Below, one piece after another: positions 5,396 through 18,863 of a stretch of 28,690 nucleotides of DNA. The position numbers were made by a program, and so were the translations under genes. The DNA is from a virus: positions 1 to 28,690 of IMG/VR virus record IMGVR_UViG_3300023181_000071, one strand, 5' to 3'. The notes below the pieces were generated by a model, which did no database searches, was not told where the DNA came from, and saw nothing but the letters and a program-made list of their open reading frames with translations. The first letter of the stretch is position 1. The number at the start of each line of letters is the position of its first letter.

Positions 5396-5601
5396 TTGCA
5401 GACCTCCGTTCCCGTTTCCAGACTGTTGTGTGCAGACGTCTGCACACGCGGAACTGGTTGTGAAAGGTTTCGTGCTTTGATGTAAGCATGACCTTTGAGG
5501 CCTGCATATGGATCGGCAGCGATGGCGCGAGTGCGGACTACCGGAGTTTCTGAGAGGCTAAGCGTTGTAAAACGAGTCGATTTAGATTCTTCTGTGACCA
5601 T
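5392..5601 (-). CDS. Hypothetical small protein, first gene of the leftward operon
   Basis: 69 aa, with no recognised domain. A good ribosome site (GGAG, 6 nt before the ATG) supports the start at 5601, and translation is coupled to the next gene by an ATGA overlap. The leader between the leftward promoter (-10 at 5635-5640) and the start codon is short. The gene contains a 20-bp perfect palindrome (5428-5447) whose core recurs twice elsewhere in the prophage; here it is read as part of RVQTSAH. Ser/Thr-rich and basic, it could be a small regulator, but that is only a guess. Confidence 0.6.
   Translation of the reverse strand: MVTEESKSTRFTTLSLSETPVVRTRAIAADPYAGLKGHAYIKARNLSQPVPRVQTSAHNSLETGTEVCK
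5428..5447. repeat. Palindrome copy 1 (GTGCAGACGTCTGCAC core)
   Basis: Perfect 20-bp palindrome GTGTGCAGACGTCTGCACAC. Its inner 16 bp (5430-5445) are identical to copies at 11851-11866 and 18616-18631. Confidence 0.85.
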
Positions 5602-5634
5602 GTCATGCTCCTATCAAGTAGTGATACGAGCAAA

Positions 5635-5663
5635 AGTATAGATAATCTATTCTTCAAAGTAAA
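5635..5663 (-). promoter_or_regulatory. Leftward early promoter (PL-like)
   Basis: On the minus strand, TTTACT (-35, 5658-5663), a 17-bp spacer and TATACT (-10, 5635-5640) lie upstream of the leftward operon that begins at 5601. The promoter is overlapped by both left operators, so repressor binding should block it. Confidence 0.6.
5636..5652. promoter_or_regulatory. Left operator 1 (GTATAG-N5-CTATTC)
   Basis: GTATAGATAATCTATTC matches the inverted-repeat consensus GTATAG-N5-CTATAC in 11 of 12 arm positions. Its centre is 23 bp from left operator 2. It covers the -10 box of the leftward promoter. Confidence 0.7.
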
Positions 5664-5675
5664 GAAAAACTATAC
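5659..5675. promoter_or_regulatory. Left operator 2 (GTAAAG-N5-CTATAC)
   Basis: GTAAAGAAAAACTATAC, flanked by AAA and TTT, matches 11 of 12 arm positions. It overlaps the -35 box of the leftward promoter. The A5 spacer is the same as in the middle and third right operators. Confidence 0.7.
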
Positions 5676-5699
5676 TTTGAAATGATGCGAAGTGTAAAT

Positions 5700-5963
5700 C
5701 TATCCAAATGTAACAACACTCATGAGCTGACTTACCTCTGCTGCCAATGTTGCCGCAAGCCACTTTGCATCCGATTTAATAGTATGATCCCAGCCGTCGA
5801 AGTCGCCGGATGTCAGGAGGTGGTTGAGGGCACTCAATTGAGCAGTCCGCATTTGCAGGTACTCAATTGCACTATCTTTTGCCACGACAACCTGAACCCC
5901 TGGGAACACGGAAGCGGTTCCAGTTTGTTCGTCTTCGAGTGCTTCTGTGTTATCAGTTTGCAT
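5700..5963 (-). CDS. DUF3077-like small protein
   Basis: 87 aa. The stretch from YLQMRTAQLSALNHLL (about 36-51) to DAKWLAATLAAEVSQLM resembles the small DUF3077-type proteins of proteobacteria, which have an 'L..L..LSALL' helix, a short acidic loop and a 'WL...LA.E...L' helix. Its function is unknown. The start at 5963 has GGA about 10 nt upstream, and a TATAAT lies about 35 bp upstream on the same strand. It reads toward the leftward operon, so transcripts could run through the left operators. It has lower GC than the structural genes. Confidence 0.6.
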   Translation of the reverse strand: MQTDNTEALEDEQTGTASVFPGVQVVVAKDSAIEYLQMRTAQLSALNHLLTSGDFDGWDHTIKSDAKWLAATLAAEVSQLMSVVTFG

Positions 5964-5997
5964 CTAGTGTTTCCACAAATAATTATTAAAGACTGCA

Positions 5998-6026
5998 ATT
6001 ATATGCGGATGGCTTCACCGTGTAGC
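5998..6026 (-). promoter_or_regulatory. Possible promoter of the DUF3077-like gene
   Basis: A perfect TATAAT on the minus strand (5998-6003) has a weak -35 GCTACA (6021-6026) at 17 bp. The divergent gap 5964-6063 is AT-rich and must hold start signals for both this gene and the Arc-like gene. No operator of the GTATAG type is seen here. Confidence 0.35.
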
Positions 6027-6063
6027 TATCGGGTATCGCTCCATTTATCTACACTGCTTTTCC

Positions 6064-6321
6064 ATGAGTAGAGACATAGCCCCATTTGGCCTGCGGATGC
6101 CTGCCGATTTAAAGCTGCGAATAGCGAAGCACGCGCGCGAGGGTGCGCGCTCCATCAATGCGGAGATTATCCACAGGCTCACCGACAGCGTGGAGGCAAC
6201 CGAGCGGCCGCTAGGCGACTATACGGATGGGGAACTGATTCGAGAATTGATGGACCGCTACGAACGTGGCGTCGTGTCAATACGGATAGGCCGGCCCGAC
6301 GACGAGGGGGGCGGCGTGTAG
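6064..6321 (+). CDS. Arc-family ribbon-helix-helix DNA-binding protein
   Basis: 85 aa. The N-terminal 45 residues fit the Arc/MetJ ribbon-helix-helix fold: a strand FGLRMPADLKLRIAKHA followed by REGARSINAEIIHRL, the classic 'R..S.N.EI..RL' signature. The tail is acidic. In phage P22, Arc represses an antirepressor operon; no antirepressor gene is visible here, so its target is unknown. It converges with the repressor gene (4-bp gap between the stops), so opposing transcription could matter. No clear ribosome site is seen before the ATG at 6064. Confidence 0.75.
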   Translation: MSRDIAPFGLRMPADLKLRIAKHAREGARSINAEIIHRLTDSVEATERPLGDYTDGELIRELMDRYERGVVSIRIGRPDDEGGGV

Positions 6322-6325
6322 GCTG

Positions 6326-6730
6326 TTACTTTTTACGGACAGGGCAAGTGTCTAGCAACGTTATGATCGTGCTTTGGATATGTGGCGGCACGTCGCGCTC
6401 TTTGAGCGCAGCGACGATATGTCCGAAGAAAAATTCATAGCCTGGCGCAGCAGGAACCTGTTCCAACACGCCCGTAGCGAAATCCCCCTCGCTGGAACTT
6501 TTCTCCAGTACTGACGGAGGCAATGGTTGCCCTGTGATCTTGCTCACTGCAATCAACTGGGAAATACTGGGCTGATGTTTGCCTAGCTCCCAGTGCGATA
6601 TATTCCCCTTTGTATTGCCGCGACTGGTCCTCAGCTCCAATGCGAGCTTGGCGCCTAGCGCCTCCCCGGATAGGCCAGCCGTCTTTCTGGCTGCCCGAAC
6701 CCATGTTGCTATTTCGTCTTTAATTTCCAT
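6326..6730 (-). CDS. Phage repressor, XRE helix-turn-helix family (CI-like)
   Basis: 134 aa. The N-terminal part (about 5-65) is an XRE domain: IATWVRAARKTAGLSGEALG, then GNISHWELGKHQPSISQLI as the recognition region. The C-terminal half is short and lacks an S24/LexA-type peptidase (no Ser/Lys dyad region), so it should not self-cleave like lambda CI. It reads leftward from the right operator region and is divergent to the Cro/YdaS-like gene, as expected of a lysogeny repressor. The three GTATAG-type inverted repeats next to it, and two more over the leftward promoter, are its probable binding sites. Induction may need another factor. Confidence 0.8.
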   Translation of the reverse strand: MEIKDEIATWVRAARKTAGLSGEALGAKLALELRTSRGNTKGNISHWELGKHQPSISQLIAVSKITGQPLPPSVLEKSSSEGDFATGVLEQVPAAPGYEFFFGHIVAALKERDVPPHIQSTIITLLDTCPVRKK

Positions 6731-6740
6731 GTTTGAGATC

Positions 6741-6757
6741 GTATAGGTTTCCTATAC
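6741..6757. promoter_or_regulatory. Right operator 3 (perfect GTATAG-N5-CTATAC)
   Basis: GTATAGGTTTCCTATAC has perfect 6-bp inverted arms. It lies 11-27 bp before the repressor start codon, where binding would affect the repressor's own transcription. Its centre is 24 bp from the middle operator. Confidence 0.75.
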
Positions 6758-6764
6758 CGATTAG

Positions 6765-6781
6765 GGACAGAAAAACTTGAC
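6765..6781. promoter_or_regulatory. Right operator 2 (degenerate)
   Basis: GGACAGAAAAACTTGAC keeps the A5 spacer and 8 of 12 arm positions of the consensus. It is supported mainly by its exact placement (24 and 23 bp from the flanking sites) and by its overlap with the -35 box of the rightward promoter. Confidence 0.5.
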
Positions 6782-6805
6782 TTAAAAGTATAGAAAAACT
6801 AGACT
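6777..6805 (+). promoter_or_regulatory. Rightward early promoter (PR-like)
   Basis: TTGACT (6777-6782), a 17-bp spacer and TAGACT (6800-6805). It lies within operators 2 and 1. Transcription would start about 22 bp before the ATG of the Cro/YdaS-like gene; that leader shows no Shine-Dalgarno sequence. Confidence 0.65.
6788..6804. promoter_or_regulatory. Right operator 1 (GTATAG-N5-CTAGAC)
   Basis: GTATAGAAAAACTAGAC matches 11 of 12 arm positions. It covers the -10 box of the rightward promoter. Confidence 0.7.
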
Positions 6806-6833
6806 TCGGCTCTGGCTTAATTTCCATAACCCA

Positions 6834-7079
6834 ATGAACACTACTCCATTAGACGAAGTCATAGCGCTTGTTGGCTCCATGCAGGCGGTCGCGGCACACC
6901 TCGGCGTTACTAAAGGCGCTGTCGGGCAGTGGAAATTGCCTGGCCGTCGAATCCCCGCAGAACACTGCCCAACGCTTGAAAAACTCGTGTCGGGCAGGGT
7001 CCGCTGCGAGGCTTTACGACCGGACGTCGACTGGGCCTATCTTCGGGGAACGGTTAAAGCTTCCGCGTCGCGTCATTGA
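6834..7079 (+). CDS. Cro/YdaS-like transcription regulator
   Basis: 81 aa. The pattern GSMQAVAAHLGVTKGAVGQW (about 14-33), then RRIPAEHCPTLEKLVSGRVRCEALRPDVDW, is the YdaS/Cro-type helix-turn-helix with its usual 'ALRPD.DW' end. As the first gene of the rightward operon, divergent to the repressor, it should act as the Cro counterpart and bind the right operators. The name 'YdaS antitoxin' is used for this family in databases, but the position here suggests a lytic-switch regulator, not a toxin-antitoxin role. No Shine-Dalgarno sequence is seen; the ATG lies close to the predicted transcript start. Confidence 0.8.
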   Translation: MNTTPLDEVIALVGSMQAVAAHLGVTKGAVGQWKLPGRRIPAEHCPTLEKLVSGRVRCEALRPDVDWAYLRGTVKASASRH

Positions 7080-7137
7080 TGGATCGAAGTGTAGTTCTGA
7101 ACGATGAATGTAAAAACCATAATTTCTAGGGAATAGT

Positions 7138-7629
7138 ATGGATCTCCGCAAAGCAGTAGTAAGAATGGTGAGTGCAGTAAATGGCGGCTGGACGGTTGCG
7201 GCTGCACACTTGGGCATGACCGAGAACGCGCTACGCAATCGCGTCTATGAAACCAAAGGCCAGACGCTGTCGACCAACGACAAGCTGACGCTGCAAGAGT
7301 TGTCGGGCACCACGTTGTTCGTCGAGGCGCTGGCGGCGGCCAGCGGTGGAACCTTCGTCCGTTTTCCGGACATCGGTCAGGTCGAGAATGAATCGGTTCA
7401 GCTGATGTTCAACGATATGTACGCCCAGCTTGGCGAGCACTTCAAGCTCTTTATGAAAGCGATTGAGGATGGCGTCATCGATACGACCGAGCGCACCGAT
7501 ATACAAGCGCACGGCGCGGAACTGCATCGCAAGGTCGAGCAATTGCAGGCGCTGATGTTCAGCATGTACTGCCGCAGTACCAACACGGTCAAAGTGAAAG
7601 CTCCTGCAGAGGAGGTGGCTCATGGCTAA
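7138..7629 (+). CDS. YmfL-like/CII-position phage regulator
   Basis: 163 aa. The N-terminal part is a helix-turn-helix: GGWTVAAAHLGMTENALRNRVYETKGQTLS (about 19-48), followed by LTLQELSGTTLFVEALAAASGGTFVRFP. This order matches the YmfL family of prophage regulators, found next to Cro/YdaS-type genes. The C-terminal part is helical and may mediate oligomerisation. It lies 58 bp after the Cro-like gene with an AGGGA upstream of the ATG, and overlaps the next gene by 8 bp. By position it resembles lambda cII, but its binding sites are not known. Confidence 0.7.
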   Translation: MDLRKAVVRMVSAVNGGWTVAAAHLGMTENALRNRVYETKGQTLSTNDKLTLQELSGTTLFVEALAAASGGTFVRFPDIGQVENESVQLMFNDMYAQLGEHFKLFMKAIEDGVIDTTERTDIQAHGAELHRKVEQLQALMFSMYCRSTNTVKVKAPAEEVAHG

Positions 7630-8053
7630 TCATGACCTCCCGCGCCGCGAAAGCTCCGCGCACGTTGCCCTCCGCGCGCTGCAGAACATCGGCGGCCATG
7701 CGCTGATTCCAGTCTGGATGCGTGTGCTGAATTGGAAGACGAAGCAAGCGGGCTTTTGCGGCCCGGTTGTCGATCGATTGGAGCGCGCAGAGTTGATCTC
7801 GGTTGAAGGCGCGCTTTGCACGGTCACAGCAGCTGGCCGCGCATACCTGGGAATCCCAAAGGCGGAGGCCCCGCAAGAGCCTGCTCTGCCGGCCGGTCCT
7901 CGTTATGTGCCGCCAATGCGCCCGCTGAACATCGCAAAGCATTTTCCCCCGCGCCCCCTGCGCCCGGAGGGCGACGAGTTCCGCGCGATCCCATCCCTGA
8001 TCGCCGATCAGCGTATCGCGTATCGCCCTGGAGTGGTTGTATCGAATGCCTGA
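7622..8053 (+). CDS. Hypothetical phage protein with winged-helix-like N-terminus
   Basis: 143 aa. A strong ribosome site AGGAGG lies 5 nt before the ATG, and the start overlaps the previous stop. Residues about 14-76 look like a winged helix: predicted helices, then a GPVVDRLERAELISVEG turn and a strand pair ending VTAAGRAYLGI. The C-terminal 65 residues are Pro-rich and probably extended. The gene sits immediately upstream of the replication protein and overlaps it by 8 bp (ATGCCTGA). It may help origin recognition or helicase loading, but this is inferred only from position. Confidence 0.65.
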   Translation: MANHDLPRRESSAHVALRALQNIGGHALIPVWMRVLNWKTKQAGFCGPVVDRLERAELISVEGALCTVTAAGRAYLGIPKAEAPQEPALPAGPRYVPPMRPLNIAKHFPPRPLRPEGDEFRAIPSLIADQRIAYRPGVVVSNA

Positions 8054-10625
8054 TTTCGCCGCTATTCCACAAGAGCTGCGTGAGCGGCCTCAATGGCTCG
8101 TCTGGCGTTTCGAGCCGAACCCGAACCCAGCGAAGCCAAAGCCGCTGAAGGTTCCGTATTGGGTGAACGGTAAGAAGCGCTACGGAGTGCAGGGCGACAA
8201 GGCCGACCGTAGCCGCCTCGTCACGCTCGACGTCGCCCTGGCCACGCTGGCGGCGTCCCAAGGCCACTACACCGGGATAGGCTTTGCGTTCCTCGCTGGC
8301 GATGGCTTGATCGGCGTCGACATCGACAAGTGCATCGACCTGGAGACGGGCGAGGTCACCGAGCTGGCCCTGCAAGCGATGGCCGGCTGTGATTCGTACA
8401 CCGAGTATTCGCCTTCGGGCACCGGTATCCACATCATCGTGGCCGGCGCCACCACGACCTTTAAATCGAATGAGATTGGCCTGGAGGTGTTTTGCTCCAG
8501 TCAGTTCTTCACCTTCACCGGCCGCCAGTTGTCCGGCTCGCCGTCCGCGATCAATCCGATTTCGGACGGCGAGCTTGACCGCCTGCGCGTCCTTGTCCGT
8601 GGCGCTCGCCCTGCTGCTACTCCAGCGCGTGCCAACACGTCGGCCCCCCTTCCCCCCGGCGCGAGCGACCTCCGCGCGCGTCTCGACGGCGCCCTGGTTC
8701 ATATCAGCCCGGAGGGCCATGACCAATGGATTCGCGTCGGTATGGCGCTGTACAGCGCCCTGGGCGAGAACGGCTTCCGCGTGTGGGATTACTGGTCGTC
8801 GCGCGCCGAAAGCTACGGCGGAGAAGAGGAGCTTAAAAAGCGCTGGGCGTCGTTTGGTAAACGTGGCGTCAACATCACCGAGGCGACTATCTTCAAGATG
8901 GCCCTTGATGGTGGCTGGAAGCCGCCGCGCTCAGTCCTTCCTCCTCCTATCAAGCCTGGTTCTTTGTCCCCCCGCCCCCCCGGCGCAAGCGAAGCCGCCC
9001 GCTCGTCCGACGCCCCCCCGCCCCCCGCTGGAAGCGACGGCGGCGTAATCAGCGCTGGGCACGCCCAGCGAGGAGAGGGGTTAATTCAAGCGGGGGCGAA
9101 GGCCCCCGAGAACGACGGCCAAGCCGTCGAAGTCGCAGTGGTCGACGCCGCTGACCCTTTCCCGGCCGCCGTCGAATCGATGGTGGCCACATACGACTAT
9201 CCGCTTGGCGACGACGAGAGCGAGCCGGCCGGGATGGACGACATTCCCTTTGGCGAGAGCGCGCCGCTTTTCGCCGGGGGGGAGGGGGCGGGCGCTGTCG
9301 TCAAGAAGGACAAGCCGAAGAAGATTTATGGCGCCGAACACTGGCTGGCGGTGGAGGACGTGCTCGACAACTTCATCCTGATCTACGGCGAAGACTTGGT
9401 TTGGGACTGCCGGCAGCGGATGCTCATGAAGCTATCCGCGATGCGCACGGTGGTGCAGAACAATGACGTCATGAAGTTTTGGGGCGGCGAGGCGCGCAAG
9501 TGGGTCCTGAAGAAAAACATCGTTTTCGATCCGACAGAGACGCCCAGTCCGGCACGCAGCGGGCCGACAGCGACAGTCAACCTTTTCAGCGGATGGCAGA
9601 TGACGCCGAAGGCGGGAAAGTGCATCCAGATACAGGCGCTGCTGCTTCACCTGGTCGACGGTAACGACGACATGTTCGACTGGATCGCGCGATGGCTGGC
9701 CTACCCGCTGCGCAATCCCGGCGCCAAGCTTGAGACGTCGATCATCATGCACGGCGATGAAGGCTCAGGTAAGAATTTCTTCTTCGAGAAGGTCGTCAAG
9801 GCGATCTACGGCGAGTACGGCTATGTGATCGGCAATCAACAGCTGGAGGCACCTTTCAATGACTGGGCATCCATGAAGCTGTTCATGGTGGCCGATGAAG
9901 TGGTGACGCGGGCCGAGCTGAAGCAGATGAAAGGCAAGCTGAAGTATTTGGTATCCGGCGACACGATCATCATCAATCCCAAAGGGTTGCCGGAACACAG
10001 CGAGCGCAATCAGATGAACTTCGTGTTCCTGTCGAACGAACTGCAACCGCTCGCGCTGGACAAGACCGACCGTCGCTACCTGGTTGTGTGGACGCCGCCG
10101 GCATTGACCAAGGAGTTCTACGTCAGCGTGGCGGAGGAGATCGCGCAGGGCGGGATAGAGGCTTTTTATCACTACCTGATGTACGAGTTGGACATGGGCG
10201 ACTTCAATGAACACACGAAGCCCATCTACAACGACGCTAAAGACAAGCTGATTGAAAAGAGCCTGGCGCCGGCCGAGCGCTTCTACCGCGAATGGTCGAC
10301 GGGCCTGCTGCCGCTGCCCTTTATCACGGTTGGCGTCACGCAGCTCTACGAGGCGTTTCAAACCTGGTGTACGCGTTCCGGCGAGTCGCGCTACACCACG
10401 CAGACGATGTTCAGCCCGTCCGTTGAACGCTACGCCGGCGCGGCGCTGAAGAAGCATCCGCTCAAGTACGAACTGGGGCATGTGGTCAAGCAGCGCATTG
10501 TGTTCCTGGTGGGCGAGCAACCGAAGGATAAGACGCTGAGGGACTGGGCCGAGCCGGCATGCGCGCTGTTCGAGTCCGCGCTCAAGACGTACAAGAGTAG
10601 AGGATTTGTCGATGTTGACGGTTAA
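8046..10625 (+). CDS. Phage replication protein: prim-pol, PriCT and SF3 (D5-like) helicase
   Basis: 859 aa from the ATG at 8046; a TTG three codons earlier is possible. The N-terminal primase-polymerase domain (about 1-190) has GVDIDKC (D92, D94) and YSPSGTGIHI with the conserved His. A PriCT-2-like domain follows (about 213-297). A Pro/Ala/Glu-rich linker (about 298-420) contains long C and G runs. The C-terminal superfamily 3 helicase of the D5/DUF5906 type has Walker A GDEGSGKN (570-577) and Walker B MVADEV (D617, E618). Such fused proteins prime and unwind DNA at the phage origin. The iteron-like region just downstream is a candidate target. Confidence 0.88.
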   Translation: MPDFAAIPQELRERPQWLVWRFEPNPNPAKPKPLKVPYWVNGKKRYGVQGDKADRSRLVTLDVALATLAASQGHYTGIGFAFLAGDGLIGVDIDKCIDLETGEVTELALQAMAGCDSYTEYSPSGTGIHIIVAGATTTFKSNEIGLEVFCSSQFFTFTGRQLSGSPSAINPISDGELDRLRVLVRGARPAATPARANTSAPLPPGASDLRARLDGALVHISPEGHDQWIRVGMALYSALGENGFRVWDYWSSRAESYGGEEELKKRWASFGKRGVNITEATIFKMALDGGWKPPRSVLPPPIKPGSLSPRPPGASEAARSSDAPPPPAGSDGGVISAGHAQRGEGLIQAGAKAPENDGQAVEVAVVDAADPFPAAVESMVATYDYPLGDDESEPAGMDDIPFGESAPLFAGGEGAGAVVKKDKPKKIYGAEHWLAVEDVLDNFILIYGEDLVWDCRQRMLMKLSAMRTVVQNNDVMKFWGGEARKWVLKKNIVFDPTETPSPARSGPTATVNLFSGWQMTPKAGKCIQIQALLLHLVDGNDDMFDWIARWLAYPLRNPGAKLETSIIMHGDEGSGKNFFFEKVVKAIYGEYGYVIGNQQLEAPFNDWASMKLFMVADEVVTRAELKQMKGKLKYLVSGDTIIINPKGLPEHSERNQMNFVFLSNELQPLALDKTDRRYLVVWTPPALTKEFYVSVAEEIAQGGIEAFYHYLMYELDMGDFNEHTKPIYNDAKDKLIEKSLAPAERFYREWSTGLLPLPFITVGVTQLYEAFQTWCTRSGESRYTTQTMFSPSVERYAGAALKKHPLKYELGHVVKQRIVFLVGEQPKDKTLRDWAEPACALFESALKTYKSRGFVDVDG

Positions 10626-10644
10626 GCGCCCACATCATCACAAA

Positions 10645-10857
10645 CCCCCCACATCGCAAACCCGCATGAATACTAGGGATGTTGGCGGTATGGGCAGTAT
10701 TGGCGGTTTTTGTTTCACTCACGCGCACGTAAAGGCTGAGCGACGGAAAGAAGTAGCAGGGCGGCGGGAAATTATTTATATCAATTCAAATTTAACTATC
10801 AACACTATCAATACTCTCAACAAAGCTAGTAAAAATCAGGCTCTCCGATGTGGGGGG
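10645..10857. repeat. Long-range inverted repeat CCCCCCACATCG / CGATGTGGGGGG
   Basis: The arms at 10645-10656 and 10846-10857 are perfect 12-bp complements with 189 bp between them. They enclose the AT-rich patch and the direct 9-mers. Confidence 0.7.
10797..10823 (+). repeat. Three tandem 9-mers (NNTCAACAC type)
   Basis: TATCAACAC, TATCAATAC and TCTCAACAA in direct abutting order. Two inverted members follow at 10860-10877. TGTTGACGG also occurs at 10614-10622, at the end of the replication gene. Confidence 0.55.
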
Positions 10858-10944
10858 TAGTGTTGACGGTGTTGAGGGTTTAGAAAAACGACATACCACA
10901 CTGGTCGGGCGGCAGTGTGGACCAAAACAGAGCATAGGATCGTG

Positions 10945-11406
10945 ATGAAAGAGTTTGAAGCGCGGATGGACAATTGGCGGCGGGTGGTGAGTGGCGGCAG
11001 CAGCGCGGCGTCGGCGTGTTGCGCCAGCTGGGCGAAGTGGTATGTGGCGCTGCGGACGTCGGAAGCACCGCCACCGCAGGATGTGCTCGAAGCGAAAATC
11101 AAGCCGCTGCGTGGCTTGGTGACCGCTGATCAATTGGACGGCTGGTTGATCGAAGCTGCCTACCGTCAGTTGGGTGATTTCAACGACCGCATGGCGTTGA
11201 AGTGCCGCCATATCTATGGGCTCGATGAGGCGCGTATCCGTATGAGATTGAAGGGTGTGCGCGGCCCGCACGTGCGCTTGGTGATCGCCCGCGCAGAAAA
11301 TAATCTCAAAGCCATCTTGAAAAAGCTGGACGAGGCGAATACCATTCGCTCTACAACTTGCCTGCCGGGGCGTCCCGTGCCTACTGTCGAATCGACGCTT
11401 CCTTGA
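10945..11406 (+). CDS. Hypothetical protein, possible late transcription regulator
   Basis: 153 aa from ATG 10945, with AGGAT 4 nt upstream; an upstream in-frame start at 10915 is less likely. The second half is helical: WLIEAAYRQLGDFNDRM, then ALKCRHIYGLDEARIRMRLKG and LVIARAENNLKAIL. This resembles the helix pattern at the end of small phage regulators of the Q/RinA kind, where a region-4-like helix-turn-helix binds DNA. Position also fits: it is the last gene before the HNH/terminase module, as late activators and antiterminators often are. I do not recognise a specific family, so the role is tentative. Confidence 0.5.
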   Translation: MKEFEARMDNWRRVVSGGSSAASACCASWAKWYVALRTSEAPPPQDVLEAKIKPLRGLVTADQLDGWLIEAAYRQLGDFNDRMALKCRHIYGLDEARIRMRLKGVRGPHVRLVIARAENNLKAILKKLDEANTIRSTTCLPGRPVPTVESTLP

Positions 11407-11432
11407 TGGAGGCGTTTGTTCGCCGGTATGAT
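11403..11432 (+). promoter_or_regulatory. Promoter of the DUF2158 gene
   Basis: TTGATG (11403-11408), an 18-bp spacer and TATGAT (11427-11432), about 38 bp before the ATG at 11471. Confidence 0.5.
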
Positions 11433-11470
11433 ACATTGCTCATTCGATACATATTTTTACTGGAGGGATC

Positions 11471-11638
11471 ATGAGCTTTGCGGTAGGTGACACAGTGATG
11501 TTGAAGTCCGGAGGCCCGACAATGACTGTCACATATGTTTTGAGTGATGGTGAAGTCAGGTGTGTTTGGTTCGTTGACGGCACTTCGGTAAGTAAGCATG
11601 ATTTTCCTTCACAGGCGTTACTGCTAAGTGAAAGCTAG
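11471..11638 (+). CDS. DUF2158 (YodC-like) small protein
   Basis: 55 aa. A ribosome site GGAGGG precedes the ATG by 4 nt. The protein starts MSFAVGDTVMLKSGGPTMTV and ends with CVWF plus KHDFPSQALLL. This is the full DUF2158 pattern: 'F..GD.V.LKSGGP.MTV', then 'C.WF' and a 'FP...L' end, and is of usual length. It probably folds as a small SH3-like barrel; its function is unknown. It has its own promoter and is followed by a strong terminator, so it appears to be a stand-alone unit set between the early and late regions. It might be expressed in the lysogen. Confidence 0.82.
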   Translation: MSFAVGDTVMLKSGGPTMTVTYVLSDGEVRCVWFVDGTSVSKHDFPSQALLLSES

Positions 11639-11671
11639 CACTGTTCAGTGCGATTAATCGTCGGATAACAG

Positions 11672-11702
11672 AGAGCCAGTCGAAGACGTGGCTCTTTTTT
11701 TT
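11672..11702 (+). terminator. Rho-independent terminator after the DUF2158 gene
   Basis: Stem AGAGCCA (11672-11678) / TGGCTCT (11689-11695) followed by a run of T. Confidence 0.85.
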
Positions 11703-11820
11703 CGTCCGGTGTTTCGCAAAAAAAAGCCGTATCAGTAACATCGCAGAATTCTCAACAGCGAAAGGCGGTGATCTGTCTCAATCCGCAACACAGCGGTGGA
11801 TTCCATATTGTTCGTTTCTT

Positions 11821-11845
11821 AGCCCGGTTCGCCGGGCTTTTCTTA
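11821..11845 (+). terminator. Rho-independent terminator before HNH
   Basis: Stem AGCCCGG / CCGGGCT with a TTCG loop (11821-11838), followed by TTTCTTATT. It lies upstream of the HNH start, so late transcription from the left must pass it. No clear function is seen in 11703-11820. Confidence 0.8.
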
Positions 11846-11850
11846 TTCAA

Positions 11851-11866
11851 GTGCAGACGTCTGCAC
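11851..11866. repeat. Palindrome copy 2 (GTGCAGACGTCTGCAC)
   Basis: Perfect 16-bp palindrome 15 bp before the HNH start codon and just after a terminator. It is identical to the cores at 5430-5445 and 18616-18631. Confidence 0.85.
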
Positions 11867-11881
11867 GGCACGAGGAGCGCC

Positions 11882-12244
11882 ATGCCGCGATCAGCACCAC
11901 GCCCCTGTACTCAGCTTGGCTGCAACGCCCTGGTGCGTGACGCCAGCGGGCGCTGCCCCAGGCATCCGCGTGAACCGTGGGTCAAGCCGGTCGCCGCGAC
12001 GAAGCGCATAACCGGCCGCCGTCTCCAAACGATGCGCGCGGCCCTGTTCGCTCGTTCGCCATTGTGCGCCGAGTGCGACAGGCAAGGGCGCGTCGCCGAG
12101 GCGACCGAACGTGACCACGTCATCCCCTTGGCTGAAGGTGGTCAGGACGAGGACGAGAACGTCCAGGGCCTGTGTGCCCCATGCCATGACGAAAAGAGTC
12201 GCGCTGAATCCGCGCGTGGTCGATGGCGTCCAGCCCTGCCGTGA
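11882..12244 (+). CDS. HNH endonuclease of the packaging module
   Basis: 120 aa. The start at 11882 has GAGGAG upstream; a longer frame from 11768 would run through the terminator. The nuclease motif is C62-x2-C65, then ERDHVIPLAEGG (D78, H79), N93, and C98-x2-C101-H102, a zinc-braced HNH fold. A further N-terminal set (C9, C14, C25) may bind a second metal ion. In many cos phages an HNH protein is encoded next to the terminase genes and is needed for cos cleavage by the large terminase; the position here matches. The gap to the terminase genes holds a candidate cos region. Confidence 0.88.
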   Translation: MPRSAPRPCTQLGCNALVRDASGRCPRHPREPWVKPVAATKRITGRRLQTMRAALFARSPLCAECDRQGRVAEATERDHVIPLAEGGQDEDENVQGLCAPCHDEKSRAESARGRWRPALP

Positions 12245-12405
12245 GGGGGAGGGCGGGTCAAAAGTCTGAGGGCTGCGCGGTGGAAACCGTCAGCTTAGGT
12301 CTATTTTTATGAAACTCGAAAACTACCCCCTGGGGGTTTAAACAGCAGTACCTCACCGCCGCGCACTTCGCGTTGTCGACCCTTCGTGCGGCTGAAAGAA
12401 ATCAC
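12245..12405. other. Candidate cos/packaging region
   Basis: A noncoding gap between HNH and the small terminase. It begins with a G-rich block (12245-12258), then GTCAAAAGTCTGAGGGCTGC and GCGGTGGAAACCGTCAGC. Further on CCCCCTGGGGG (12326-12336) stands in an AT-rich setting. In phages with HNH next to terminase, cos usually lies here. No cut site can be proven from sequence. Confidence 0.4.
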
Positions 12406-12888
12406 ATGAACCTAAAAGCGTACTTCGCAACGGCGCTCCCACCAGGTAGCGCGACCGTGCCCAAGCCGGGCCATGCACTTACCTCGCCGGCGCCACCTCC
12501 GTCTTTTGGTCTCAGCGGCGATGAGCTGGAGATCTACGGCTACATCTGCGAGCACCTCTGCATCGTTGGCATTGAGCATATGACGTCGGGCATCACCATC
12601 GCCGTCACGGCCCGGACGCTGATGCAGTATCACGCCGCATGCCGTGAGTGCGATGAGAAAGGCCGCTCTCAGACTTCGAAGACTGGATGGGCCACGCCGA
12701 CACCTTGGGCCGATGACGAAAAACGCCTCAAGATGGAGCTGGGCCAATGGCTACCCAAACTTTGCTTAACAATCCCTTCGCTGGCGCGGGTCCGCAAGGA
12801 CTCGGGGGAAAAGGCGGGGCAGGACGACCTGTTCGCCGACCTCGTAAACCACGGCACCAACTCACCAAGAAGCGCCTCGCTGAACTGA
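12406..12888 (+). CDS. terS: Terminase small subunit, P27 family
   Basis: 160 aa from ATG 12406; a TTG at 12373 in frame is less likely. Upstream GAAAGAA is a modest ribosome site. The core LSGDELEIYGYICEHL, then TARTLMQYHAACRECDEKG and KRLKMELGQWLPKLCLTIPSLARV, matches P27-type small terminases. These oligomerise on the packaging site and recruit the large subunit. The last 47 codons overlap the large-subunit gene in another frame (142 bp), which is unusually long. The C-terminal tail after LARVRKD is low-complexity and may be dispensable. Confidence 0.8.
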   Translation: MNLKAYFATALPPGSATVPKPGHALTSPAPPPSFGLSGDELEIYGYICEHLCIVGIEHMTSGITIAVTARTLMQYHAACRECDEKGRSQTSKTGWATPTPWADDEKRLKMELGQWLPKLCLTIPSLARVRKDSGEKAGQDDLFADLVNHGTNSPRSASLN

Positions 12889-14600
12889 CGCCGGCCGAGC
12901 TGGAGGAGTGGGACGAAGCGTACGGCTTGCCGGTGCTGCGCGGCGAGATCGTCACCGGCCGGTATGTCTACCTGGCGGTGAAGCGCCACTACGAAGACCT
13001 GGTGAACGGCGGCAAGCGCGGCCTGGTGTTCGTGCCGGCGCACGGCTGGCACATCATCCAATACATCGAGCGATTCTTCGTGCACATCAAGGGGCCGCTG
13101 GCTGGCAAGCCGATCCTGCTCGATCCGTGGCAGAAATTCTGGACGGCTGTGCTGTACGGATGGCGACGCGCCAGCGATGGCGGCCGACGCTTCAATCGCG
13201 GCTACGAGGAGGTGGCGCGGAAGAATGGCAAGAGCACGTGGAAAGGACCGCAAGGCGCCTATCTGTTCTCGATGGACGGCGAGATCGGCGCCGAGGTGTA
13301 CGCGGTGGCGACCACGCGGGCGCAGGCCATGACGGTATTCAAGCCAGCCTTCGACAATATCAAGCGCTGGGTACGGCGCTCGAAAGGCGTGGCGCGTTCG
13401 TTCAAGGTGTTCGCCGGCTTGAACCAGGAGAAGGTCGAGCTGGACGACAACTCGGTGTTCGCGCCGCTGCCGGCCAACGCGGAAAACCTCGATGGCCTGA
13501 ACCCCTCGGCGATTTTGTTTGACGAGCTGCACGCCCAAAAGCACCGGGACGTGTGGGACGTGATGGAGTCGGCGCTGGGCGCGCGCTTTCATCCGCTGCT
13601 GTCGGCGATCACGACGGCCGGCTTCATCTTGGACGGGATCTGCACGGAGCAACGCGCGTATCTGATTTCCGTCCTCGAAGGCAAGCGGATGGACGACGCC
13701 TATTTCGGCTACGTCTACACGCTGGACGCGGACGACGACCCGTTCAAGGAATCGAACTGGATCAAGGCCAATCCGGGCCTGGGCAAGTCGAAAACGCTGG
13801 AGTACATGCGCGGTATGGCCCGCAAGGCTGCTGCTTTGCCCGGTGCGCGGGCCAATTTCCTGACCAAAGACCTGAATATCTGGTGCAACAGCGCCGATGG
13901 ATGGTTCGATATCAGCGTGTGGGACAAGGGCGGCAAGAAATTCGACCCCGAAATACTCAAGGGCCGCAGGTGTTTCGGCGGTCTTGACCTCGCGTCGACG
14001 CGGGATTTGACCGCCTATTCGCTGGTTTTTCCGCCCGAAGAGGACGGCGGCGACTGGTATGTGCTGGTCTGGATGTGGTGTCCGAAGGAAAAAATCGAGA
14101 CGGAGGCCGACGAAGACGCCGCGCCGTACAAGGCGTGGGAGGAGGCGGGCTGGTTGACGGGCACGCCTGGCAACGTAACCGACTACGTTCCGGTCAAAGC
14201 GCGCATCTTGCAGTCGATGCAGGACTACGACGTGCAGGAGATCGGCTTCGACCGCTGGAACGCGCTGCAGCTGGCCAACGAGTTGCTGGAGCAGGACGTG
14301 CCGCTGGTCGAGGTGCCGCAGAACACCGGCGGCATGTACCCCGGCAGCAAGCGCCTGGAGGAACTGGTCTACGGACTCAAATTGCGGCACGGAGCAAATC
14401 CAGTGCTGCGCTGGTGCGCGGTCAACACGGCGCTGCTGTTCGACTCCAACGGCAACTTCAGGCCGGACAAGAAGAAGTCGAACGCCAACGGGCGCATCGA
14501 CGGCATCGTCGCCACCGTCATGGCTCTGAGCCGCGCCGTATCAGGCACCGAGGAAAGCAACCTCGATGACTTCATTTTCAACCGGGTAATCACGCAATGA
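12747..14600 (+). CDS. terL: Terminase large subunit (Terminase_1 type)
   Basis: 617 aa motor and nuclease that packages DNA into the prohead. A basic N-terminal tail (GRPVRRPRKPRHQLTKKR) precedes GEIVTGRYVYLAVKRHYEDL. The ATPase has the Walker A variant VARKNGKST (156-164) and Walker B AILFDELHA (D259, E260). The RNase H-like nuclease has D414 (FGGLDLASTRD), D502 (EIGFDRWN) and D585 (NGRIDGIVATVMAL), as expected for metal binding. The length is slightly above the usual 550-600 aa because of the tail. The ATG at 12747 has GGAG upstream and lies inside terS; the end overlaps the portal start by ATGA. Confidence 0.92.
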   Translation: MATQTLLNNPFAGAGPQGLGGKGGAGRPVRRPRKPRHQLTKKRLAELTPAELEEWDEAYGLPVLRGEIVTGRYVYLAVKRHYEDLVNGGKRGLVFVPAHGWHIIQYIERFFVHIKGPLAGKPILLDPWQKFWTAVLYGWRRASDGGRRFNRGYEEVARKNGKSTWKGPQGAYLFSMDGEIGAEVYAVATTRAQAMTVFKPAFDNIKRWVRRSKGVARSFKVFAGLNQEKVELDDNSVFAPLPANAENLDGLNPSAILFDELHAQKHRDVWDVMESALGARFHPLLSAITTAGFILDGICTEQRAYLISVLEGKRMDDAYFGYVYTLDADDDPFKESNWIKANPGLGKSKTLEYMRGMARKAAALPGARANFLTKDLNIWCNSADGWFDISVWDKGGKKFDPEILKGRRCFGGLDLASTRDLTAYSLVFPPEEDGGDWYVLVWMWCPKEKIETEADEDAAPYKAWEEAGWLTGTPGNVTDYVPVKARILQSMQDYDVQEIGFDRWNALQLANELLEQDVPLVEVPQNTGGMYPGSKRLEELVYGLKLRHGANPVLRWCAVNTALLFDSNGNFRPDKKKSNANGRIDGIVATVMALSRAVSGTEESNLDDFIFNRVITQ

Positions 14601-15877
14601 ATCTAAAGACCAAGGCCATCGCATGGCTGAAGAAATCCATCGCCGGGGCGGTCGCGACACTGTCCTCGGGCGGCGGAGGCGGCAGCTCCTATTCCGGCAA
14701 GAGCGTCAACGTGCAATCGGCGCTGCAGCTGGCGACCGTGTGGGCGTGCGTCAGGCTCATTTCGGAAACAATCGCCACGCTGCCGCTGAGCGTCTACGAG
14801 CGTGACGCGAAGGGGCGGCGCACGGTTGTGCGGGACCATTGGCTGTACACGCTGATCCACGATCAGCCTAACGCCAACATGACCGCCGTGGAATTTTGGG
14901 AGGCGGTGATCGCGCAGCTCTGCCTATGGGGCAATTCCTACTGCCTTAAGAGCTACGCGGGCGGGCGCATCGTGTCGCTCGACCCGCTGCGGCCGGATCG
15001 CATGACGGTCAAGACCGACGAGAACGGCGCGCTGTTCTATTCGTATGTGACCACGGCCGGCGTCAAGAAGTACACCGAGGACGAGATTTTCCACGTCAAG
15101 GGTTTTGGAATCGACGGCCTGATCGGACTATCGCCCATCGCCTACGCCCGCAACAGCCTGGGCGCGGCGATGTCGGCGGACGAGGCCAGCGGCAAGGTGT
15201 TCGCCAACGGCATGCGCGCCGGTGGCGCCTTGAAGATGAAGGAAATCCTCAAGAAGGAGCAGCGCAAGGAAATTCGGGAGAGCCTGCTGGAGGATCTGGT
15301 CGGCACGGCCAACACCGGCAAGTTGATGGTGCTCGAAGGCGGCGCGGAGTACGTGCCGCTGTCGATGAACCCGGAAGACGCGCAGATGCTGGAAACGCGC
15401 GCGTTCAACATCGAAGAGATTTGCCGCTGGTATCGCGTGCCGCCTTTCATGATCGGCCATAGCGAGAAGTCCACCAGCTGGGGCACAGGTCTGGAACAGC
15501 AAATGATCGGCTTCCTGACCTTCGCGCTTCGCCCTTACCTGACGCGCATCGAGCAGGGCATCAAGAAGAGCTTGCTCAAGCCGGCGGACCGCCGCCGTTA
15601 CTTCGCCGAATTCAACCTGGAGGGGCTGATGCGCGCCGACTCGGCCGCGCGCGCGGCGCTGTACGCATCGGCCGCGCAAAACGGCTGGATGACGCGCAAC
15701 GAAATCCGGGAGTTGGAGAACCGGCCGCCGCTCGAAGGCGGCGACGAGCTCACCGTGCAAAGCAACCTCGTTCCCCTGGGGATGCTGGGCAAGGTGACAT
15801 CGGCCGCGAAGGCGGCGAAACAAGCAATTTTGAACTGGCTGGAATTGCCGGCCTTTGAGGAGAGCAATGAAACGTAA
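14597..15877 (+). CDS. Portal protein, HK97 family
   Basis: 426 aa. It forms the dodecameric ring at the capsid vertex through which DNA passes. Recognisable blocks are ATVWACVRLISETIATLPL (about 48-66), WEAVIAQLCLWGNSYC, DEIFHVKGFGIDGLIGLSPI and the C-terminal FNIEEICRWYRVPPFMIGH, all typical of Phage_portal of the HK97 group. The length is normal for the family. Translation is coupled to terL (ATGA), and the stop overlaps the protease start by 11 bp. A Gly/Ser-rich stretch (about 24-33) near the N-terminus is probably flexible. Confidence 0.92.
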   Translation: MNLKTKAIAWLKKSIAGAVATLSSGGGGGSSYSGKSVNVQSALQLATVWACVRLISETIATLPLSVYERDAKGRRTVVRDHWLYTLIHDQPNANMTAVEFWEAVIAQLCLWGNSYCLKSYAGGRIVSLDPLRPDRMTVKTDENGALFYSYVTTAGVKKYTEDEIFHVKGFGIDGLIGLSPIAYARNSLGAAMSADEASGKVFANGMRAGGALKMKEILKKEQRKEIRESLLEDLVGTANTGKLMVLEGGAEYVPLSMNPEDAQMLETRAFNIEEICRWYRVPPFMIGHSEKSTSWGTGLEQQMIGFLTFALRPYLTRIEQGIKKSLLKPADRRRYFAEFNLEGLMRADSAARAALYASAAQNGWMTRNEIRELENRPPLEGGDELTVQSNLVPLGMLGKVTSAAKAAKQAILNWLELPAFEESNET

Positions 15878-16553
15878 GAACGCGGTATTCAAAATCCGCA
15901 GCTTTGACCTCGACGTCAAGGCGGTGTCGGAATCAGGCGTGTTCACCGGCTACGGCTCGGTGTTCGGCGTGGTCGACAGCTACAACGAGGTGGTGGCGCC
16001 CGGCGCTTTCAAGGCCAGTCTGGAGGAACTGGCCGCCAGTGGCCGCGCCATTCCCATCCTGTGGCAGCACCGCACCGGGGAGCCCATCGGCGCGTGGGCA
16101 TCGCTCAAGGAGGACGCGCGCGGTCTGCTGGGCGACGGCGAGTTGTGGCTGGACGAAGCGCCGTACGCACGCCTGGCATACAAGGGCATGCAGACCAAGA
16201 CCATCACGGGCCTGTCCATCGGCTACTACGTGCGGCGCAGTAGCTACGACGAGAAGACCGGCATCCGCACGTTGCTCGAACTGGAGCTGGTGGAAATTAG
16301 CATCGTCACCACGCCGGCCAACGACGACGCGCGCGTCGAAACGATCAAGTCGCGCATCGCACGCGGCGACTTGCCCGATGTATCCGACTTTGAGGAGTTC
16401 CTGGTTGGCGCGGGCTTCTCGAAATCTCAGTCCGCGGTGATCGCAAACCGTGGGCTGAAACATCTGCACCGGCCCGACGCCGGCAACGATGAAAAGAGCG
16501 ACATCGCCGCGCTGGTACAGCAGGCGAACAAATTTTCCCTTCCTACCTTTTAA
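15867..16553 (+). CDS. Prohead protease, HK97 (S78) family
   Basis: 228 aa from ATG 15867, chosen for GAGGAG 6 nt upstream. It processes the capsid protein during head maturation. The likely triad is H68 (ILWQHRTGEPIG), S117 (TGLSIGYYV) and E143 (LELVEISIVTTPAN), in the standard order for the S78 peptidases. The N-terminal YGSVFGVVDSYNEVVAPGAF block is also typical. The C-terminal 70 residues are less conserved and may be removed on self-cleavage. The major capsid gene follows after 9 bp. Confidence 0.9.
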   Translation: MKRKNAVFKIRSFDLDVKAVSESGVFTGYGSVFGVVDSYNEVVAPGAFKASLEELAASGRAIPILWQHRTGEPIGAWASLKEDARGLLGDGELWLDEAPYARLAYKGMQTKTITGLSIGYYVRRSSYDEKTGIRTLLELELVEISIVTTPANDDARVETIKSRIARGDLPDVSDFEEFLVGAGFSKSQSAVIANRGLKHLHRPDAGNDEKSDIAALVQQANKFSLPTF

Positions 16554-16562
16554 GGACGCAAC

Positions 16563-17804
16563 ATGAACATGAATACCCAAGACCGCACGATGCAACGCAA
16601 GAACGCGGGCCAGCGCGCGGACGACCAGCTGGAACTGAAGCAGTTGACCGACTCGCTGGAGCGCCGCGACACCGAGATCAAAGGCTGGTGCGAAAAGGCG
16701 ACAGCCGAAATCAAGGACCTGGGCAAGGTGAGCGCCGAGACGACCGCCGCGCTGCTCAAGCTGTCCGAGGGCGGCGTCGAGATGCAAGACCGCCTGCTGG
16801 AAGTTGAACAAAAGCTGGCGCGTCGCGGCAATCAGGACGGCGCCATCATCAAGTCGGTCGGCACCATGTTCTCGGAGTCGGACGACTTCAAGGCGCTGCT
16901 GGCCAAGGGCGGCCGTGGCACCGCGCGCATGTCGCTCAAGGCGGTGACCAGCATCAACAGCGGGACGACCGGCACCGGCGGCGTGGGCGCCGCCATCCGT
17001 CCGGACCGGCTGGAGGGCATCAACGCGCCGCCGCAACGCGAATTCACCATCCGCGACCTGATCATGCCAGGTCGCACCGGCTCGAACTCGGTCGAGTACG
17101 TGCGCGAAAGCGGCTTCCAGAACATGGCGGCCGCCGTCGCCGAGGGCGCGCGCCGCGCGCAGTCGGACCTGAGCTTCGACCTGGTCATGGCGCCGGTGCG
17201 CACCATCGCGCACTTCTTCAAGGCGTCGCGCCAGGTGCTGGACGACATCCCGCTGCTGCAAAGCTACATCGACGGGCGCGCCCGCTATGGTCTGAAGTAT
17301 GCCGAGGAAGAAAAGCTGCTGGGCGGCGACGGCGTGGGTCAAAACATCTTGGGCCTGATCCCGCAGGCGTCGACGTTCAACGACGCGCTGCGCAAGACCG
17401 GCGACACCCGCATCGACACGCTGCGCCGCGCGATCCTGCAATGCCGCATCGCCGAGTACCGCCCGAGCGCCGTCGTATTGAATCCGGTGGACTGGGCGGA
17501 GATCGAGTTGCAGAAGGACGACACCGGCCAATACATCTGGGTCAACGTCGGCACCGGCGCCGAACCGATGTTGTGGCGCCTGCCGATCATCGACACCAAC
17601 GCCATGCCGGACGGTCATTTCATGGTCGGCGCCTACAACATGGCCGCGCAGGTGTTCGACCGCGAAGAGGCGAACGTCGAGGTGTCGACCGAGGACGGCG
17701 ACAACTTCAAAGAGGGCATGGTGACGATCCGCGCGGAGGAGCGCCTGGCGCTGGCCGTGCACCGTCCGCAATCGTTCGTCTACGGCCCATTCGCCAAACC
17801 GTAA
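16563..17804 (+). CDS. Major capsid protein, HK97 family
   Basis: 413 aa. Residues about 15-85 form a charged coiled-coil delta domain that acts as built-in scaffold. After a linker (about 110-142, with GTTGTGGVG), the HK97-fold shell domain starts near APPQREFTIRDLIMPGRTGSN and includes ESGFQNMAAAVAEGA, TIAHFFKASRQVLDDIPLL and, near the end, VTIRAEERLALAVHRPQSFV. The protease encoded just upstream probably cuts in the linker near residues 110-125; the exact site is inferred. AAGGA before the ATG gives strong initiation. It should be the most abundant head protein. Confidence 0.92.
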   Translation: MNMNTQDRTMQRKNAGQRADDQLELKQLTDSLERRDTEIKGWCEKATAEIKDLGKVSAETTAALLKLSEGGVEMQDRLLEVEQKLARRGNQDGAIIKSVGTMFSESDDFKALLAKGGRGTARMSLKAVTSINSGTTGTGGVGAAIRPDRLEGINAPPQREFTIRDLIMPGRTGSNSVEYVRESGFQNMAAAVAEGARRAQSDLSFDLVMAPVRTIAHFFKASRQVLDDIPLLQSYIDGRARYGLKYAEEEKLLGGDGVGQNILGLIPQASTFNDALRKTGDTRIDTLRRAILQCRIAEYRPSAVVLNPVDWAEIELQKDDTGQYIWVNVGTGAEPMLWRLPIIDTNAMPDGHFMVGAYNMAAQVFDREEANVEVSTEDGDNFKEGMVTIRAEERLALAVHRPQSFVYGPFAKP

Positions 17805-17821
17805 TCTCAACCTGGGAAAGG

Positions 17822-17843
17822 GCGGGCAGGGAGACTTGCCCGC
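17822..17843 (+). other. Hairpin after the capsid gene
   Basis: GCGGGCA (17822-17828) pairs with TGCCCGC (17837-17843). No T run follows, so it may stabilise the capsid message or pause transcription, not terminate it. GGGAG (17829-17833) lies in the loop. Confidence 0.55.
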
Positions 17844-17852
17844 ACAAATAAT

Positions 17853-18206
17853 ATGGATATTGAAATCACCAAGTCGCACCAATCGGCCGGCGCGTGGGTA
17901 CATCCCGGCGCCGTACAGCGTGATGTGGACGAGGCCCGCGCGCAGGATTTGTTCCGCAACGGCCTGGCCCGACCGGCCGTGGTGCTGCGCGTGCGCACCG
18001 CCGACAGCAAGCCGGCATCCACGCCGCAGAATAAAGACGCCGCAAAGCCGTCCACGAAGGCCATCACGGCGAAACGGATCGAATCCGGCTCCAACACTCA
18101 GCCGGCGGCGGTAAAGGCGACTGAGGCCGTCTTAGGCGGCGCCGAAGGCAAAGACGCCGCCGAAGGTGGCGAGCAGGAGCAGGGCGATGCCGCTGGTCAG
18201 TCTTAA
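17853..18206 (+). CDS. Hypothetical small head-region protein
   Basis: 117 aa between the capsid and connector genes. The N-terminal 50 residues look folded (ITKSHQSAGAWVHPGA, then VDEARAQDLFRNGLA). The rest is Ala/Lys/Glu/Gln-rich and probably disordered. Small proteins at this point are common in HK97-like gene orders; their roles vary and none is recognised here. The ATG has no near ribosome site; a GGGAG lies about 20 nt upstream in a hairpin loop. It overlaps the next gene by 20 bp. Confidence 0.6.
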   Translation: MDIEITKSHQSAGAWVHPGAVQRDVDEARAQDLFRNGLARPAVVLRVRTADSKPASTPQNKDAAKPSTKAITAKRIESGSNTQPAAVKATEAVLGGAEGKDAAEGGEQEQGDAAGQS

Positions 18207-18531
18207 CCTGGCGCGCAAGCATCTGCATGTAGACGATCCGGAAGACGACGAGATGGTGCTCTTCTACCTCGCCGCCGCCGAGCAAGCGGCGTGCGACTTC
18301 ATAGACCGTAACGCTTATGTGGACTCGGCGGCGCTCGATGCGGCGGTCGCGGCGGGCACTGCCGGCGAGCGGCCGATGGTGGCCAATCCCGCCATTCAGG
18401 CGGCGGTGCTGCTGATGCTGGGGCACCTATGGGAAAACCGCGAGGACAGCGTCATCGGCGTGAGCGCCGTGGAGCTGCCCAAAGGCTCGCGCACGCTGCT
18501 TAATCCTTCCCGTATCGGGATGGGGGTCTGA
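18187..18531 (+). CDS. Head-tail connector protein (gp6-like)
   Basis: 114 aa from ATG 18187, with AGGAG nearby; a longer frame from 18166 is less likely. VSLNLARKHLHVDDPEDDEMVLFYLAAAEQAACDFI (read in two halves) is the signature of Phage_connect_1/gp6-type adaptors, which form a ring under the portal. The C-terminal ending NPSRIGMGV, after a LMLGHLWENREDSVIG helix, is also typical. It sits in the usual order before the head closure gene, with a TGATG junction. Confidence 0.85.
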   Translation: MPLVSLNLARKHLHVDDPEDDEMVLFYLAAAEQAACDFIDRNAYVDSAALDAAVAAGTAGERPMVANPAIQAAVLLMLGHLWENREDSVIGVSAVELPKGSRTLLNPSRIGMGV

Positions 18532-18863
18532 TGCGCGCGGGACGACTCAAGAAGCGCATCACGTTCCAGTTGCAGCTTGCCGGCAAGGACTCGGCCGGCG
18601 GCACCGCTTACACCAGTGCAGACGTCTGCACAGTGTCGGCCGGCGTGAAAAACCTGCCGAGCGACGAGAAGCGGCAAACGACCCACGGCGGCGAGCAGCC
18701 GATAGAGAAAACGGAATTCACCATCCGCTATCGGCGCGACATCAATTCAACGATGCGCATCGTCTACAAGAGCAACATCTTCAACATCATCCATGTGAAC
18801 AACGTGAACGAGGATAACGAAAAGCTGGTGATCACGGCGCACGCCGGCAGCGAGGTGGCGTAA
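18531..18863 (+). CDS. Phage head closure / head-tail adaptor protein
   Basis: 110 aa. It begins MRAGRLKKRITFQLQLAGKD and has TEFTIRYRRDINSTMRIVYK and NIIHVNNVNEDNEKLVI, as in SPP1 gp16-like (Phage_H_T_join) proteins that seal the portal after packaging. The length is usual. Start and previous stop share TGATG; the next gene starts directly after its TAA. The third copy of the 16-bp palindrome is embedded here (18616-18631), read as SADVCT. Confidence 0.85.
   Translation: MRAGRLKKRITFQLQLAGKDSAGGTAYTSADVCTVSAGVKNLPSDEKRQTTHGGEQPIEKTEFTIRYRRDINSTMRIVYKSNIFNIIHVNNVNEDNEKLVITAHAGSEVA
18616..18631. repeat. Palindrome copy 3 (GTGCAGACGTCTGCAC)
   Basis: Perfect 16-bp palindrome inside the head closure gene, identical to copies 1 and 2. 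Confidence 0.85.

Follow-up and report, generated by a model that had tools for sequence, protein, structure and literature searches.

Introduction

The closest described relatives of the locus analyzed here are the chromosomal ParB-parS (Spo0J/ParB) and Noc-NBS systems, in which a protein with a ParB_N CTPase fold and a helix-turn-helix (HTH) is paired with a 16-bp palindromic site often located near or inside parB. The canonical parS site is TGTTTCACGTGAAACA. Our locus, a 28,690-bp stretch of viral DNA (hereafter the window), resembles these systems in protein and site alike, and its palindrome GTGCAGACGTCTGCAC has the length and the central ACGT in common with canonical parS. However, the half-site reads GTGCAG in the phage and TGTTTC in canonical parS, the phage sites are spread genome-wide whereas those of chromosomal ParB-parS lie near oriC, and the phage ParB lacks a ParA partner while carrying a Cys4 element and a long C-terminal part.

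A second parallel is KorB-OB of plasmid RK2, where a ParB-type CTPase of a mobile element, to which the phage protein is matched by Foldseek, is likewise paired with multiple dispersed 16-bp operators, including sites near promoters (PMC11790492). KorB-OB differs in that its site has another sequence and RK2 KorB also works with KorA, whereas the phage ParB resides on temperate phages. The best extended family match is PRTRC ParB (TIGR03734), which covers residues 52-308 including the Cys region but, at 123 bits, stays below the curated cut-off of 278.6; no PRTRC gene neighbourhood was seen in the window.

Orphan ParBs of prophages and plasmids, having the ParB-CTPase fold but neither ParA nor a ParA-binding motif, have been surveyed (PMC12704722), and the searched text of that survey mentions neither a palindrome nor any site for the window ParB family. 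The paper describing phage VarioGold, a relative discussed below, mentions neither parS nor palindromes, and the open-access literature searched (subscription papers were outside its scope) contains no mention of the 16-mer or its inner 14-mer. Orphan prophage ParBs as such are already known; the site and its layout appear to be unpublished in the open-access literature searched. We propose, with a probability of roughly 0.87, that GTGCAGACGTCTGCAC is a parS-type loading site for the temperate phage's own orphan ParB-like protein, because the site is phage-borne and present in multiple copies, its DNA sequence is itself conserved, and its presence follows the HTH type of the ParB. Binding itself is inferred from sequence comparison, without binding data.

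Results

The window is an IMG/VR phage contig without host sequence, and its gene content is that of a lambda-like temperate siphovirus. Its genes encode an integrase, an excisionase, the ParB-like protein, CI/Cro/CII-type regulators, a primase-helicase, HNH, terminase, portal, protease, capsid, connectors and tape measure; the features relevant here are collected in Table 1. The integrase gene (1220-2227) abuts, at its 3' end, a transposase gene (rve, 118-1161) with 14-bp matching ends bounding 52-1198. Its reading frame ends prematurely, following LLGHTEQV, so that a truncated integrase and an excision-defective prophage are probable. The tape-measure gene contains a direct duplication (25391-25664, 180-bp offset).

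Table 1. Palindrome copies and neighbouring features of the window
Feature	Position	Strand	Remarks
ParB-like protein, 726 aa	2684-4864	-	ParB_N CTPase fold, ParB HTH, Cys4 element, long C-terminal part
ORF170, 170 aa	4883-5395	-	directly upstream of parB; kept in relatives; phrog_6236, weak
Site 1	5430-5445	none	exact GTGCAGACGTCTGCAC; palindrome extends to 5428-5447
Terminator-like hairpin	11821-11838	+	just before site 2; consensus match only
Site 2	11851-11866	none	exact GTGCAGACGTCTGCAC; at head of packaging genes
HNH endonuclease gene	11882-12244	+	Pfam HNH 3e-12; downstream of site 2
Head-closure protein Hc1	18531-18863	+	phrog_25 2e-19; contains site 3
Site 3	18616-18631	none	exact GTGCAGACGTCTGCAC; inside head-closure (Hc1) gene

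The 16-bp palindrome, parS-type with its central ACGT, is present in exactly three exact copies, and tolerating up to three mismatches adds none. Shuffled versions of the window gave a mean of 0.21 matches, and 0 of 100 shuffles reached three. The scan thereby bears out the original prediction of three identical copies, in coordinates as well as exactness, and the extension to 20 bp claimed for site 1 holds for that copy only. Since GTGCAGACGTCTGCAC is palindromic it has no strand, and the earlier remark that two copies lie inside genes on opposite strands fails. The gene contexts first assigned are correct for site 2, which precedes HNH by 15 nt (start codon ATG at 11882; a GAGGAG Shine-Dalgarno lies in between), and for site 3, which lies within its gene in the frame SADVCT, 0.8 kb past the major capsid gene. 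The copy attributed to a frame reading RVQTSAH, site 1, instead lies 34 nt ahead of the ORF170 start codon (ATG) and is most likely intergenic, outside any gene; where two copies within genes had been claimed, only site 3 is clearly in coding sequence.

The window ParB matches Pfam ParB_N (5e-21), HTH_ParB (PF17762, 4e-15, the central HTH) and, in the PDB, Spo0J (4e-29), and it passes the ParB/RepB/Spo0J superfamily model TIGR00180 with 121 bits against a cut-off of 58. By Foldseek, its N-terminal fold matches CTP- or CDP-bound structures of ParB, Noc and KorB, and the GERR and ENxxR boxes are present in 79-80 of 81 ParBs of the family. CTP binding, hydrolysis and spreading from the site are inferred from these conserved boxes and the fold only. 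Downstream of parB, the annotated phages carry a gene of 317-380 aa of unknown family (L340:2004-3146, L341:26953-27987, L342:32971-33924) that is absent from the window; this gene of ~340 aa has no Pfam match.

We scanned public viral contigs and genome contigs for the 16-mer. Among the matches listed, many are intragenic and the gene's product contains CPKRTGNQPELFADVKSADVCTDPDC. This stretch is the Cys4 region of a ParB-like homologue of the window ParB, and the location suggested that the 16-mer is the site of the window ParB family. To limit circularity, we assembled a protein-first set of viral loci fetched by ParB protein only, although some circularity remains in that the seed alignment was built from motif-bearing loci; the window protein's nearest matches make up the 80 loci, and the rates hold for near relatives. 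In these loci (1.24 Mb) the 16-mer has 46 exact matches plus 83 with up to two mismatches, where the reversed-string control has 2, and its inner 14-mer, TGCAGACGTCTGCA, is the top palindromic 14-mer, found in 40 loci where the runner-up is found in 6. The site, with at most one mismatch, occurs in 41 of 50 ParB-selected records of at least 30 kb and its reversed string in 0 of 50. When long viral records were instead selected by the 16-mer alone, 40 of 45 encoded the ParB family, ParB_N being missing from five (one probably truncated). These phages are related, and p-values overstate their independence.

The same association is seen in 195 whole genomes from the family of Massilia polaris. 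The 16-mer is present in 16 and absent from 179 of them (control, 0), the ParB family (E<=1e-80) is present in 15, and both occur together in 12 (Fisher p 1.7e-13); of the four genomes with the motif but without the family, one (L350) carries a broken ParB fragment where the site lies. In multi-copy genomes the copies are mostly confined to one prophage-sized stretch of 15-40 kb, usually with parB in it, as in a 3.3-Mb genome with four copies within 22.5 kb, and elsewhere in the host genome the 16-mer is all but missing. Among the candidates of the original prediction, which also named a methylase, a nucleoid factor and a mobile or genome-wide repeat, co-occurrence in both directions, in phages and in host genomes, thus supports the ParB-like protein as the binder. 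An even and very high frequency over the host genome, named beforehand as the outcome that would refute the prediction, was looked for and the opposite was seen. Host-wide repeats, uptake sequences and methylase sites were ruled out by these counts, and 16 bp far exceeds the length of a methylase site. That the copies reflect chance, composition or any such repeat has no evidence in its favour, and with the inner 14-mer as the top palindrome of ParB phages we regard it as practically negligible.

Relatives often carry a copy of the site inside parB. There the alanine codon is GCA in 29 of 31 genes encoding ADVC, against 18% gene-wide (p 8e-20), and the aspartate, valine and cysteine codons likewise follow the palindrome. 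Outside parB, where 81 of 132 sites are found (protein-first loci plus window), the surrounding sequence is unrelated and conservation ends at the 16-bp edges. That the site is kept merely through a conserved SADVCT protein sequence is ruled out by this number together with the codon constraint. The tolerant form of the consensus is GTGCANACGTNTGCAC, in which N mostly completes GTGCAGACGTCTGCAC.

Presence of the site also follows the HTH type of the ParB. The recognition-helix pattern xxS[RKE]x[YH][IV][YF] is found in 62 of 63 site-positive but only 3 of 18 site-negative ParBs, albeit it was chosen after inspecting the data on which it was tested. In ParB and Noc, this region holds residues that set specificity for parS or NBS (PMC7383237). 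ParB relatives without the site include SQTR types (L279, L283, L285, L289, L294, L297, L306) and GKGR types (L284, L288, L302, L305), and no convincing replacement palindrome was detected for these clades. The site could in principle belong to another co-inherited DNA-binding protein of the phage, such as a repressor, a CII-like activator, HNH or terminase, as two of the recurrent sites lie next to regulatory or packaging genes. We consider this quite improbable, given the link to the ParB HTH type and given that in-parB copies occur where no similarity to the window primase, CII, HNH or TerL was detected (L293, L295, L303, L308, L315, L319).

Across about 30 phages, sites recur inside parB (+0.8 kb) and just upstream of the ORF170-parB operon, with a further recurrent site near HNH/terminase, 6-8 kb upstream, and looser positions elsewhere. 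A site just upstream of an ORF170 homologue is seen in about ten relatives, an equivalent of site 2 upstream of HNH in four (L244, L249, L267, L309), and a site just past the capsid gene, like site 3, in two annotated relatives. In L299, L314, L316, L317 and L318, a TTGCAGACGTCTGCAA-type variant or near-variant lies a fixed 150 bp before the TerL match. A similar arrangement is found in the annotated phages VarioGold and Aval and in a circular Comamonas element. Variovorax phage VarioGold, which has six copies or variants of the site, can be induced with mitomycin, uses a tRNA-Ser gene for integration and has cos packaging (VarioGold paper).

Overall, neighbouring sites on the phage genome are some 6-10 kb apart, a spacing more even than uniform placement would give (4 SD below the null in a combined statistic that does not correct for relatedness). 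This spacing bears on whether the ParB is a purely local transcription regulator of the KorB/VirB kind, for which only promoter-proximal sites would matter and the others would be incidental. Such a role would fit the sites that precede the parB operon and the HNH/terminase genes, and KorB, with its 16-bp operator, silences over kilobase distances by sliding; many conserved sites, however, are intragenic and far from likely promoters, which together with the over-even spacing leaves us doubtful of it.

With respect to ParABS, the locus meets the expectation of co-inherited parS-like palindromes but not those of a cognate ParA and a ParA-binding motif. ParA (PF13614) was detected in 0 of 50 ParB phage records, while the same search was positive in 14 of 14 control genomes, and none of 81 ParBs has an N-terminal ParA-binding motif, the window protein having only an internal LGKGI. 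Judged from gene content, integrated phages can apparently host a ParB/parS system that lacks its usual partner ParA. The sites might still form a dispersed centromere by which ParB partitions an extrachromosomal phage form with the help of a host ParA. Indeed, a circular 37-kb relative is deposited as a plasmid, and two contigs of one host genome (G010 contigs C1 and C6; L355, L356) apparently hold one prophage twice with identical site spacing, one of them as a separate 37,267-bp contig, which suggests an extrachromosomal or duplicated form. Against this stand the absence of ParA and of the binding motif in the phages searched, as well as the integrase and CI-type genes of these phages and the integration of VarioGold. 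Partition by a host ParA is thus unlikely, and less likely than a KorB-like regulator or a coat over the whole genome.

Discussion

If GTGCAGACGTCTGCAC is the loading site of the phage ParB, a mechanism can be sketched from the protein fold, in which a ParB dimer would bind the palindrome, load CTP, close as a clamp and slide into flanking DNA. The layout further hints that the site preceding the ORF170-parB operon may serve autoregulation and that the site before HNH/terminase may control late or packaging genes. With sites every 6-10 kb, clamps could reach the entire phage genome, and would mark or regulate phage rather than host DNA without ParA. Function beyond binding has no experimental support. 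We tentatively raise the possibility, which we hold to be less than even, that a ParA-free ParB clamp on evenly dispersed sites coats the whole temperate phage genome and acts as an identity tag of self versus host.

Prophages carry many orphan ParBs whose role has yet to be settled (PMC12704722). With a defined site this question becomes testable, and inducible isolated phages such as VarioGold allow the site to be studied. The palindrome also provides a 16-bp marker for finding prophages of the window ParB family, and the HTH types that go with or without the site form a natural paired set for the study of ParB specificity. Should the identity tag prove true, it would be used for genome-wide regulation, anti-silencing, protection or packaging, unlike the function of a centromere.
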